Notes under the pieces: generated by a model
What the model saw: only the letters and a program-made list of their open reading frames with translations
Told to the model about the DNA's origin: nothing
Database searches by the model: none
Shown: positions 39,261-43,856 of the stretch, piece after piece
How the letters are laid out: each line of letters starts with the position of its first letter
Position numbering within the stretch: position 1 is the first letter of the stretch
Made by a program: the position numbers and the translations under genes
Assembly (NCBI GenBank): GCA_025355995.1
Contig: JANXYQ010000101.1
Location: 1-58,570, forward strand
Source: Spirochaetaceae bacterium
Lineage (GTDB): Bacteria > Spirochaetota > Spirochaetia > Treponematales > Rectinemataceae
Length of the DNA stretch: 58,570 nucleotides
Direction: 5' to 3'

Positions 39261-39489
39261 ACCAGCCCACCTCATCTCCTAATATGCAATTCTCATGCCA
39301 GTAATCAGAAATGACGGAGATAAATATTCTCTTATATTGTAATGCAATACCAGCAGCTGCAATAGGAATAATGTGCATATCTCATATTCTAGTTCCATTA
39401 TCGTAATATATCATTACACTATTGAATAAAGTTGTATTTATTTGATCGGGTATACGATCGAAGCAATCACGTCTCGCAGGAGCAGAAAT
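39261..39489. other. AT-rich gene-free spacer
   Basis: This stretch lies between the small unknown gene and ridA. It is clearly AT-rich in a GC-rich region. It contains a short inverted repeat GTAAT-ATATC-ATTAC near 39405-39419 but no confident promoter that I could place for either divergent gene. Confidence 0.5.
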
Positions 39490-39870
39490 ATGCCAAGGAA
39501 AGCCATCACCGCCGAAGGCGCCGCCGCGATCGGCCCCTATTCGCACGCAGTCGACTCGGAGGGGCTAGTCTTCCTATCGGGCCAGACGCCGATCGATCCC
39601 GCCACGGGGAAGCTGGTCCGAGGGGATATCGGCGCGCAGGCCGCGCAGAGCTTCCGCAACCTCCTCGGGGTCCTGTCGGCCGCGGGCCTGAGTCCCGAGG
39701 ACGTCGTCAAGGTCAACGTATACCTGGCGGACATGGCCGATTTCCCTGGGATGAATGCGGTCTACGAGCGGCAGTTCGCCGCGCCTTATCCCGCCCGCAC
39801 GACTATCGGCGTCGCCTCGCTGCCCCTGGGCGCGAGGATAGAGATCGAGCTCATAGCCCGGCGGTCATGA
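39490..39870 (+). CDS. ridA: RidA-family enamine/imine deaminase
   Basis: This 126-residue YjgF/YER057c/UK114 protein has catalytic Arg103 in ARTTIGVASLP, Gly31 in LSGQTP, and IEIE with Glu118/120. It hydrolyses reactive 2-aminoacrylate to pyruvate and ammonia. The ATG at 39490 has AGGAG 7 nt upstream and gives the standard N-terminus. It appears to be a single gene. Confidence 0.95.
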   Translation: MPRKAITAEGAAAIGPYSHAVDSEGLVFLSGQTPIDPATGKLVRGDIGAQAAQSFRNLLGVLSAAGLSPEDVVKVNVYLADMADFPGMNAVYERQFAAPYPARTTIGVASLPLGARIEIELIARRS

Positions 39871-39924
39871 GGGCGTCGCCCGGGCTTCATTGCAATCGGG
39901 CCCGCCGCGAATATACTTCACGCA

Positions 39925-41106
39925 ATGGGAACCGAGCAGGACCCGCCCGCGACGCTGGCGATGGACGGCCCTAGGGCGCGGCTCGCACTCAGGCTCATCT
40001 GCTCCCTCAGCGCGGGGGGCGTCGGCATCATCCTGCTGGCCGACGCGCTCAATGGCTTCTCGAGGAATTTCATCGCCATCGCCCTGATGTTCGCCGCCTT
40101 GGCCGGCTGCGCGGCGATGAGCGGCTTCAGGGCCTTGTCTCGCCTTACCGCCGCGGTTTTCCCCGCCGTCGTACTCGCGTTCCTCGTCCTCGTCTTGGCG
40201 ACCGGCAGCGGTATCCACGATCCTACCTCCCCCGCCTTCATCGTCGTCATCCTCGTGGCGACCCTCTTCCTCGGCAAGCGCGGCGCCATCGCCTACACGG
40301 GGCTGTCGATGCTCGCCTCCGGGATAGTGATCGGCCTCGACATACTGAGGCTCCTCGACAACCCGTTTCATTCCAACTGGGGCACGCTGGTCGCGTTCTG
40401 GGTCGTGACGGCGCTCGGCGGCACGCTTCTTTGGTTCCTGCTCGGCGAGCTGGAGCGCAAGACCCTGCGCGAGGCGGCGGCCGCCTCGAAGGTCCTGGCC
40501 CTCAACGAGGCGCTGGAGCGGCGCGTCGAGGAAAAGGATTTCCTGCTTAGGGAGCTCCAACACCGGGTCAAGAACAACCTGCAACAGCTCGCCGCGCTCG
40601 TGTCCATAGACTCGGGCGCCCCGGACGAGGGCGCGGAATCCTTCAGGCGCGCGGCCGAGCGCAGGATCCAGGCTATGGCCGACCTCTATGACCTCGGCTC
40701 GGCCGGCGACAAGGCCTCCGAGGTCCTCATCGGCGCCTACCTCGAGACAGTCTGCCGATCCGCCCTACCGCAGCGCCGCGCAGGCCCCCTGGACCTCGAC
40801 CTCGATCCAGGAGCCAGGGCGCCGATGGACAAGGCCCTGCTCGCCGGCCTCCTCGTCGCCGAACTCGTCTCCGCCGCCCAGCCCAGCGCGGTGCGCCTCT
40901 CGGTGCGCGAGGAGGCCAACGGCGCCTGGATCGGGATCGAGCTCTCCGAATCGTCGATGGACATCGCGGCGCTGATCGCGAACTCAGGCCACAGCCTGTT
41001 CGGCATACTCGAGGACGAGCTGGGGGCGGCGGTCTCCATCGACCTCGAGGGCAGTCGAATAGCGGCGACCTTCCTCCTCGCGAGGGAAGGCAATGAGCGC
41101 GGATAA
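39925..41106 (+). CDS. Membrane HisKA_2-type kinase with degenerate ATPase domain
   Basis: This 393-residue protein has five or six N-terminal membrane helices (about 20-172), a coiled linker and a HisKA_2 block LQHRVKNNLQQL (His213). The ATPase domain is decayed: the N-box reads AELVSAA (312-318) where active kinases have NELVTNA, and no DxGxG box is visible in GIELSESSMDIAAL. It probably does not bind ATP normally and may act as a partner or phosphoacceptor for the intact kinase at 41686. No ribosome site is visible before its ATG. Confidence 0.8.
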   Translation: MGTEQDPPATLAMDGPRARLALRLICSLSAGGVGIILLADALNGFSRNFIAIALMFAALAGCAAMSGFRALSRLTAAVFPAVVLAFLVLVLATGSGIHDPTSPAFIVVILVATLFLGKRGAIAYTGLSMLASGIVIGLDILRLLDNPFHSNWGTLVAFWVVTALGGTLLWFLLGELERKTLREAAAASKVLALNEALERRVEEKDFLLRELQHRVKNNLQQLAALVSIDSGAPDEGAESFRRAAERRIQAMADLYDLGSAGDKASEVLIGAYLETVCRSALPQRRAGPLDLDLDPGARAPMDKALLAGLLVAELVSAAQPSAVRLSVREEANGAWIGIELSESSMDIAALIANSGHSLFGILEDELGAAVSIDLEGSRIAATFLLAREGNERG

Positions 41107-41128
41107 TCCCCATAGGAGGAATGGTGGT

Positions 41129-41689
41129 ATGTCAGGAATACGATTCCAGCACAGGATTCTCCTCGGCCTTGCCCTCGCCTGGGCGGCGGCCTTCGCCGTC
41201 GCCCAGGGCTCGGAAAAGGCCGCTATAGATGCGATACGCCTGCCCGCCGGCCTATCGGCCGCGACCGCGGACCTGAGGATCGGCGGCGCGATCCGCGGCG
41301 GATCCGCCGTCCTCCTGGACGCGGCCGCCGTAAAGACCTTTCCGGCACGGAGCTTCACCTGCGTAGATCCCTGGGACGGCAAGGAGCACCGGTTCGTCGG
41401 CGCCCTCCTCTCCGACATCATGTACAGGGTCGGCATCGACGAGTCCGTGACGCGAATCACCATCTTCGCGAAGAACAAGTACAGCATTCCGATCCGCCGC
41501 TCCGACTATGAGAAATTCGGCTACATCCTCGCGTGGATGATGGACGGTGACCTTTTCGCCGAGGATAAAGCGACGAAGAACCGCGGTACTTTCATAATCG
41601 CGATCAATTTCGCCAAGTACCCGGAGCTCGATCCGCAGCTCTACAAGCACCAGCTCGTCTGGCAAGCCTGCGAAATCATCGCCGAATGA
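41129..41689 (+). CDS. Secreted protein with molybdopterin-oxidoreductase-like fold
   Basis: This 186-residue protein has a signal peptide (RILLGLALAWAAAFAVAQG). The mature part (ADLRIGGAI, VKTFPARSFTCVDPWDGKEHRFVGALLSDIMYRVG, YSIPIRRSDYEKFGYILAW, KHQLVWQACEI) resembles the sulfite-oxidase-type fold found in short periplasmic proteins next to kinases. Key cofactor residues are not evident, so it is more likely a sensor than an enzyme. I chose the ATG at 41129 with AGGAGG 9 nt upstream. It overlaps the next kinase as ATGA. Confidence 0.7.
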   Translation: MSGIRFQHRILLGLALAWAAAFAVAQGSEKAAIDAIRLPAGLSAATADLRIGGAIRGGSAVLLDAAAVKTFPARSFTCVDPWDGKEHRFVGALLSDIMYRVGIDESVTRITIFAKNKYSIPIRRSDYEKFGYILAWMMDGDLFAEDKATKNRGTFIIAINFAKYPELDPQLYKHQLVWQACEIIAE

Positions 41690-43122
41690 GCGAGGGAAAC
41701 GGCCACGGCGCCAAACGCAAACGGGAAACAGCGCTCCGGTACTCTTTCTTCGTGGTCCTCGCCTGCCTGGCCGTCTTTATCGTCCTCGCCTATGTGGGGA
41801 ATCTCCAGCTCGCGTCGCAGATCGACGAGGATCGAGCGGCCTTCGAGCGGAATATCTACGAACAGAGCACCTCCCTCAATCGCGTGGTATTCGCCGTCTA
41901 CGACCTCCTCCGCCACTCGACCGATGATGGCGGTAACGCCGGTTTCGCGGGCATCGTGAGGCTCGGGCAGGCGGCCCTGAACAACGCCGCCATACCCGCC
42001 ATCATCGAGCCTTCCTTCCTCTCGCCCTTCCTGGGAGACGATCCACTCTTCCTCGCGGAGCGGGCGGCGAAATCGAACGAGCGGTACCTCGAGCGCGTCG
42101 GGAGCCTGACCGCGCTCCTGGCTGCAGCCGAAGCGTCGGGCAATACCGAGGAAGGCCGGACGAGGCTGGGGGCCTTCCTCGCGCCCGCCGCCGGCTTCAT
42201 GGAAGAGCTCCGGGACCGTTCGATGCTGTACATCCAGATAGAGGGAGCCTATCATTCCGCGAATCGGGGGAACCTCGCGCGCCTCCATTCCCGCATATCG
42301 ACGAACCTGGCGGAGTTCTCGATCATCACCGTCCTGCTCATAGTCATCTCCATGCTCTTCTTCCGCTCGCGGATGACCATCGAACGCGAAATCAAGGCGC
42401 ACCGAGACCACCTGGCCGAGTTGGTGGCCGAGAGGACCGACGAGCTGGGCGCGACGAATTCGCGACTGCGAGCCGCGCTCGGCGAGAAGGAAGTCCTCCT
42501 CAAGGAGGTGTACCACCGCGTGAAGAACAACCTCGCCATCGTCGCGAGCCTGATCTCGCTTCAGCAGACCGAGGCCAAGCCCGAAAACCTCGAGGAAGCC
42601 TTCGACGGCCTTAGCAAGCGCGTGGGGGCGATCTCGCTGATACACGAGCGTCTCTACCGCAGCGCGGACCTGTCGAGCATCGCCTTCAGGGACTACGTGG
42701 GGGAGCTCAGCCGGACCCTGATCTATTCCCTGTCCCGGAATCCGGCGGCCATCGCGCTGGACCTCTCCGGCTCCGACGCGAATTTCGGTCCGGACATCCT
42801 GGTCCCGCTCGGCCTCATCATCACCGAGCTCGTGACGAATTCGCTGAAATACGCCTTCAAGGGACGGCCGGGGGGTAGGATCGGGATCTCCCTCGCCGAG
42901 ACGGGCGAAGGTTTCGTCCTCGAGGTCCGGGACGACGGGACGCCGCCCGCCGACAGGAGGACCATACTAGAGAGCAAGTCCCTGGGCGCCATCCTCGTGA
43001 CCAGCCTCGTGGCGCAGATAGGGGGCAGCCTGGAGCTCGAGCTGTCCGGCGGGACCCGCGCGATCATACGCTTCCCCTACGAGCCAGTCGGGCCGGGCGA
43101 GCGGGCCTTCGCGGCCACATAG
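41686..43122 (+). CDS. Membrane HisKA_2-type sensor histidine kinase
   Basis: This 478-residue kinase has helices at about 20-40 and 212-226 around an extracytoplasmic sensor domain and a short coiled coil. HisKA_2 has His277 in EVYHRVKNNLAIVASL. The ATPase domain is intact (ITELVTNSLKYAF with Asn385, VRDDGTPP, SLGAILVTSLVAQIGG). It is translationally coupled to the secreted protein upstream, which makes that protein a candidate ligand-sensing subunit. No response regulator is adjacent. The 3' end overlaps a convergent gene by 46 nt. Confidence 0.88.
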   Translation: MSEGNGHGAKRKRETALRYSFFVVLACLAVFIVLAYVGNLQLASQIDEDRAAFERNIYEQSTSLNRVVFAVYDLLRHSTDDGGNAGFAGIVRLGQAALNNAAIPAIIEPSFLSPFLGDDPLFLAERAAKSNERYLERVGSLTALLAAAEASGNTEEGRTRLGAFLAPAAGFMEELRDRSMLYIQIEGAYHSANRGNLARLHSRISTNLAEFSIITVLLIVISMLFFRSRMTIEREIKAHRDHLAELVAERTDELGATNSRLRAALGEKEVLLKEVYHRVKNNLAIVASLISLQQTEAKPENLEEAFDGLSKRVGAISLIHERLYRSADLSSIAFRDYVGELSRTLIYSLSRNPAAIALDLSGSDANFGPDILVPLGLIITELVTNSLKYAFKGRPGGRIGISLAETGEGFVLEVRDDGTPPADRRTILESKSLGAILVTSLVAQIGGSLELELSGGTRAIIRFPYEPVGPGERAFAAT

Positions 43123-43856
43123 GCCTTGCGTCTCCCGTCCTTGGGGCCCTCCACGAGGAGGCCCGCGCGGGCGAGGCAGTAGAGTATCTTCCGCGCCCTA
43201 TCGGAGCCGATGTCGAGGGCCTCGCCGAGGGCGGCCGAGGTCCAGGGAGGGATGAGCGACTTCGGGATTAGGGCGAGCCACTGGCCTCGCGTCCGGAAGG
43301 AGCGGGAGGAGAGGACCTCGACGAGCTCGCGGTCGACGGTCCTGTCCCCCTTCCTTCGCCACGAGCCGGAGCCGTCGCGAGTCTTGGTCTCCGCGGTCCT
43401 CACGAGCAGGACCTCGATGGTCACGTTGCGCGACGCGATCAGCCCCGCGGCCTTCACGAGCTCGTCGAAGAGGCTGTACAGATCCCCGTGCTTCGGGCTC
43501 TTGCGCACGGAGAGGAGCTCTTGGGTCTTCGGGTCGAGGCGGCGGATCTCCCGTTCGACCGATACAGGGTGGACGACGCGGACGCGATGGCCCGCCGCGG
43601 CGAGCGCGAGGACCTTGGGCACTATCTTCCCGAGGCTCCCGGTCTGCACCTCGACGAGCTCCCCGTCCGCGCGCACGAGGTCGACCACCTTCCCGCCCAC
43701 CAGGGCCTCGAGGCGGTCCCCCGGTCCCGCGAGCCGCGCCTTCAGCGCGGAGTGGAGACTGTGCTCGGAGTACAGGTTGATTCCCGATCGTTCGGCCACG
43801 AGGGCGGCGCGCGGCGGCGCCGCGCCGCTGAGGCTCGCCTTAGCCAATAATCCCAT
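43077..43856 (-). CDS. Conserved protein, nuclease-like N-terminus with winged-helix C-terminus
   Basis: This 259-residue protein has the segments INLYSEHSLHSALKA, GGKVVDLVRADGELVEVQT and LGKIVPKVLALAAAGHRVRVVHPV, which resemble a PD-(D/E)xK-like fold (Asp in VDLV, Glu-x-Gln in EVQT). The C-terminal part (SAALGEALDIGSDRARKILYCLARAGLL) looks like a winged helix. I recall similar conserved hypothetical proteins from treponemes. The start at 43856 begins at the conserved region; the longer frame upstream is antisense-free but runs out of phase through the kinase gene and is rejected. Confidence 0.75.
   Translation of the reverse strand: MGLLAKASLSGAAPPRAALVAERSGINLYSEHSLHSALKARLAGPGDRLEALVGGKVVDLVRADGELVEVQTGSLGKIVPKVLALAAAGHRVRVVHPVSVEREIRRLDPKTQELLSVRKSPKHGDLYSLFDELVKAAGLIASRNVTIEVLLVRTAETKTRDGSGSWRRKGDRTVDRELVEVLSSRSFRTRGQWLALIPKSLIPPWTSAALGEALDIGSDRARKILYCLARAGLLVEGPKDGRRKAYVAAKARSPGPTGS

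Follow-up and report, generated by a model that had tools for sequence, protein, structure and literature searches.

The window, by which we mean the whole 58,570-nt stretch of spirochaete DNA that was analysed, carries a gene for a secreted protein related to the pterin-binding protein PruR (gene 2) coupled to a gene for an intact HisKA_2 sensor kinase (gene 3), and upstream of these a gene for a membrane HisKA_2 protein (gene 1) that by its sequence is a genuine pseudokinase. The relatives of the source genome (G000) are uncultured Spirochaetaceae and other spirochaetes, and comparison among them indicates that the conserved unit is the pair of genes 2 and 3, not the triad; the pseudokinase-plus-pair arrangement was found only in the window genome among the genomes searched. 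The described cases of pterin signalling via PruR come from Proteobacteria, where the partners are c-di-GMP enzymes or HisKA-type kinases, and literature searches, whose coverage of subscription papers was poor, returned nothing on PruR in spirochaetes. What is new here, as read from gene content, is PruR-linked signalling with a HisKA_2 kinase in a non-proteobacterial organism, together with a pseudokinase of uncertain role.

The three plus-strand genes occupy 39925-43122 (open reading frames as called: 39925-41106, 41093-41689 and 41686-43122; Table 1). Because of the AGGAGG at 41114-41119 the start of gene 2 is better placed at ATG 41129, and genes 1 and 2 are therefore separated by 22 nt and do not overlap. 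A consensus scan of 39300-43400 gave four promoter-like sites (0.5 expected), a number that by itself is no evidence of function; on the plus strand the same scan gave no such site from the start of gene 1 to gene 3. The position of the site just upstream of gene 1 agrees with genes 1-3 possibly forming a single transcript. The convergent gene downstream has no Pfam match at E 0.001. None of the 91 receiver-domain matches of the genome lies on the window contig (C64), in line with the original prediction that no response regulator is adjacent.

Table 1. Features of the three-gene set and its flanks.
Feature	Position	Strand	Basis or remark
RidA-family gene, upstream flank of the three-gene set	39442-39870		
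Promoter-like site, TTGCAA-16-TATACT	39890-39917	+	Consensus scan; ends 7 nt 5' of the gene 1 start
Gene 1, predicted membrane HisKA_2 pseudokinase, 393 aa	39925-41106	+	Pfam, alignment, hydrophobic segments
Shine-Dalgarno-like AGGAGG for gene 2	41114-41119	+	Read directly; 9 nt 5' of ATG 41129
Gene 2, predicted secreted PruR-like SUOX-fold protein, 186 aa	41129-41689	+	ATG 41093 further upstream is an alternative start
Gene 3, intact HisKA_2 sensor kinase, 478 aa	41686-43122	+	Pfam; ATGA overlap with gene 2
Convergent gene, downstream flank	43080-43808	-	Ends at about 43077; 3' end overlaps the gene 3 end by ~40 nt

The relationship of gene 2 to PruR was seen in both single-sequence and profile searches. 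By phmmer it matches the solved pterin-binding proteins 7kos, 7rkb and 7kom (E 7e-9 to 6e-8) and its family profile finds 7kos at E 1e-21; the significant PDB matches are pterin-binding proteins only, one of them labelled after the SUOX-type domain, and the match list of the profile search holds no Moco enzyme. Against the Pfam SUOX-type model gene 2 reached only 0.09. Its one hydrophobic segment (residues 10-28) is a predicted secretion signal, and its length of 186 aa compares with ~170 aa for PruR proteins. In the alignment N116, Y118 and W178 match the positions at which Asn, Tyr/Phe and Trp contact the pterin in PruR (PMC13259868), and gene 2 probably reports an extracellular pterin-type molecule. 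FolE1 was found in none of the seven genomes tested; an absence of pterin synthesis, which this had suggested, was rejected, as FolE2 is encoded in all seven and synthesis can therefore start.

Gene 3 was predicted from the outset to be an intact HisKA_2 kinase joined to gene 2 by an ATGA, and this is borne out by Pfam matches to HisKA_2 (7e-23) and HATPase_c (1e-8), with no HisKA match, and by the overlap at 41686; the H-box, N-box and DxG motifs are all present. The predicted topology consists of a transmembrane segment (residues 20-38), a periplasmic domain of ~165 residues (about 45-207), a second transmembrane segment (208-226), the DHp domain and the HATPase domain. The WX7E motif, present in four of five plasmid-encoded PruR partners, is absent from gene 3 and its four relatives, and a profile comparison, made with thin profiles, detected no relation of the gene 3 periplasmic domain to those of DcpA-type proteins or the hybrid kinases.

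The gene 2 family was found in eight of the 149 genomes searched, and a second contig scan returned the same seven relatives, all uncultured spirochaetes. In five genomes (G000, G003, G004, G040 and G048) the gene is coupled to a gene 3 homologue and in three further spirochaetes to a HisKA-HATPase-receiver hybrid, while wider sampling added two more PruR-like genes, the one in G640 coupled to a WX7E hybrid kinase and the one in G465 to a PAS kinase. This range of HisKA_2, hybrid HisKA and PAS partners suggests that the PruR-like protein is an exchangeable input module. The G640 locus (G640:C2 1369-3431) consists of a classical-looking PruR and a HisKA hybrid kinase in which WX7E was read by eye (WSYAQLNFE), and the proteobacterial type therefore also occurs in the phylum. 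At G465:C31 1077-3437, in a distant member of the phylum, a single receiver domain, a PruR-like protein and a PAS sensor kinase lie together, the receiver gene being a feature unlike the window. No gene 1 lies alongside the pairs in G003, G004, G040 and G048, from which it follows that the pair can do without it. The interpretation that had been placed on this locus is thus partly supported: the reading of the SUOX-fold protein as the likely ligand sensor of the adjacent kinase agrees with its PruR-like character and with the pair being present in five genomes, but the three-part device proposed with it was found in no relative searched.

Gene 1 has a Pfam match to HisKA_2 (E 9e-12) and none to HATPase_c. 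It has about six hydrophobic segments with short loops, a DHp domain with H213 and a degenerate CA domain. Alignment with gene 3 and its four relatives confirmed what had been proposed for this protein, namely that the helix of His213, the phospho-accepting residue, is kept and that the N-box asparagine and the DxG box are lost, and it showed the H-box to be kept as well. In the N-box region ITELVTNSLKYAF is replaced by VAELVSAAQPSA, which is followed by an eight-residue gap, and in the DxG box VRDDGTPP has become IELSESSM. Such a loss is unusual within its genome. Of 44 HisKA_2 matches in the window genome the best 30 were checked (two were missed by the pattern and one is cut short), and all 27 readable proteins among them keep both the N-box residue (N, once D) and, by pattern or by eye, the acidic D-D/N/S/E-G box. 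Comparison with the ortholog in G003 by simple pairwise counts, with dS near 1, gave dN/dS values of 0.30 for the membrane module, 0.15 for the DHp domain and 0.33 for the degenerate CA domain, which indicates that purifying selection on gene 1 is about as strong as on genes 2 and 3 and is strongest in the His-bearing DHp domain. That gene 1 is a decaying pseudogene in the window genome is unsupported, given these values (0.15-0.33) and the open frame. Its interest lies in being a membrane HisKA_2 protein without an ATP site, outside the Alphaproteobacteria and apparently under selection.

The model that we prefer, and to which we would give slightly better than an even chance, is that the PruR-like protein and kinase 3 are a sensing pair and that gene 1 is a phosphotransfer protein of the PhyT/Spo0B/ChpT kind. 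In the periplasm the secreted protein would bind a pterin-type molecule and may dock on the ~165-residue periplasmic domain of kinase 3, docking would set the autophosphorylation or phosphatase state of the kinase, and the signal would presumably pass from there to an unlinked response regulator. With its phospho-accepting His on two dimerising helices, gene 1 would act without ATP, either by passing phosphoryl groups between receivers or by sequestering a receiver used by kinase 3. A PruR kind of function for the pair is proposed because of the relationship to PruR at E values of 7e-9 and 1e-21, the retained Asn, Tyr and Trp and the coupling in five genomes, and the model is supported by published precedent, since PruR modulates DcpA via the DcpA periplasmic domain and PruR also occurs with DcpA-TorS-BaeS type (DTB) kinases (PMC13259868). 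The PhyT-like role is suggested because the His is kept, the ATP motifs are lost in both orthologs and dN/dS is lowest in the DHp domain. Several features count against the model: the periplasmic domain of kinase 3 has neither WX7E nor a detected relation to DcpA, gene 2 has at residue 78 a cysteine in a molybdenum-ligand column, unlike described PruR, and gene 1 has no PhyT-type periplasmic sensor domain, with no receiver gene on the contig.

The distribution of gene 1 bears on its relation to the pair from two sides. A search for its membrane module, which covered 394 genomes from the order and 395 from the class, yielded only G003, a hit to the module in G004 and a single marginal hit. The G003 gene, the only ortholog found, likewise lacks the N-box Asn and DxG, so that homologues do not contradict the degenerate state of gene 1; it is split by two frameshifts, which could be real decay or an assembly error. 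In G004 (G004:C53 3946-5868) the membrane module stands on a different histidine kinase of 641 aa with an intact ATPase, and the module is therefore a shared sensor or anchor module. It is a plausible, though less probable, alternative that gene 1, as a pseudokinase restricted to its lineage and possibly belonging to some other phosphorelay, is unrelated to the pair and lies upstream by chance. Gene 1 is missing near the other pairs, and in G003 it is on a different contig from the pair and upstream of another sensor-kinase/response-regulator pair. Against this, it stands in the window only 22 nt away on the same strand with a promoter-like site only before gene 1, and both genomes in which it was found also carry the pair. 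Proximity and co-occurrence thus speak for the functional link assumed in the preferred model, and absence from the other pairs speaks against it.

Cys78 of gene 2 bears on the nature of the ligand. The molybdopterin-binding cysteine that the original prediction had proposed looking for has a candidate in this residue, which in two alignment modes and in the profile alignment falls in the column of the molybdenum-ligating cysteine of E. coli MsrP, and which aligns also with the cysteine of a spirochaete SUOX-like protein. Because it occupies this column, gene 2 is termed PruR-like and is not filed as PruR. It is unlikely, but conceivable, that gene 2 binds Moco or free molybdopterin with Cys78 ligating the metal, and that kinase 3 reports periplasmic Moco or a redox reaction. 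The cysteine is found in four of the five HisKA_2-linked members and MoaC in all seven genomes tested, so that, with FolE2, synthesis grounds speak against neither Moco nor simple pterins. On the other side, the column holds Ser in G004 and in every hybrid-kinase-linked member and Thr, or once Met, in five plasmid and four PDB sequences; the gene 2 domain is as short as PruR, its similarity is clearly to PruR, and its PDB matches are free of Moco enzymes. PruR proteins are reported to lack the molybdenum-ligating cysteine and to have a pocket that is probably too small to take Moco (PMC13259868). With the cysteine at a metal-ligand column, the question of the bound ligand can be approached by a single substitution. 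A second SUOX-like protein is encoded in the window genome at G000:C136 about 1027-1890, its gene being followed by one for an apparent ECF-type sigma factor and by another that is FecR-like.

We consider it very unlikely that proteins 1 and 3 act as a heterodimer or in series, with kinase 3 phosphorylating His213 in trans and the secreted protein as the common sensor. The two genes are near each other on the same strand and possibly on one transcript, both proteins are membrane-anchored, and the retained His213 and DHp domain are the most constrained part of gene 1, but the pair occurs in four genomes with no gene 1 beside it and in G003 gene 1 lies elsewhere. Gene 1 is also no close paralog of gene 3: the two share 28% identity and gene 3 ranks only 27th of the 38 HisKA_2 proteins compared for similarity to gene 1, which disfavours a recent paralogous heterodimer. 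An origin of gene 1 by recent tandem duplication of gene 3 was rejected on the same two figures. Direct phosphorylation by kinase 3, while possible, is the least supported form of a link to the pseudokinase. Most improbable of all is a PruR-derived sensor that has kept or regained the Mo-ligating cysteine and reports Moco or the redox state of a molybdopterin or pterin to the HisKA_2 kinase, with the membrane pseudokinase as an ATP-independent relay, although, if true, it would be a Moco- or pterin-responsive phosphorelay outside the Proteobacteria.

Among known systems MsrP (YedY) of E. coli shares with gene 2 the SUOX-type fold and the Cys in the same column, but is a larger Moco enzyme with only marginal sequence similarity. 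The soluble proteins Spo0B and ChpT resemble gene 1 in their degenerate ATPase domain but have no counterpart of its roughly six membrane segments. Both are phosphotransfer proteins derived from histidine kinases (PMC5898713). PhyT (formerly PhyP) of Sphingomonas melonis is membrane-anchored and HisKA_2-type with a degenerate ATPase; it moves phosphoryl groups between receivers via its His and sequesters one of them (PMC5898713). Gene 1 shares the membrane anchor, the HisKA_2 type, the phospho-accepting His and the degenerate ATPase, and by analogy may also share the phosphotransfer, but where PhyT has a putative periplasmic sensor domain and a phyR-type locus, gene 1 has short loops only and no phyR-like neighbour. 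The spirochaete gene 2, at about 25-29% identity to proteobacterial relatives, differs from PruR (7kos, of Agrobacterium tumefaciens, and 7rkb, 7kom and 7kp2) in having Cys for Thr at the Mo-ligand column, and shares with it the secreted SUOX fold, a similar size, the pterin-contact Asn, Tyr and Trp and the coupling to a gene for a membrane signalling protein. Gene 3 differs from the PruR-DTB kinases in having a HisKA_2 core and not a TorS/BaeS-like HisKA core, and in having no WX7E and no receiver domain. The gene order of the pair is nevertheless like that of the PruR-DcpA and PruR-DTB operons of Proteobacteria (plasmid examples), and as in PruR-DTB a PruR-type gene stands directly before the gene for a transmembrane sensor kinase that has a single periplasmic domain.
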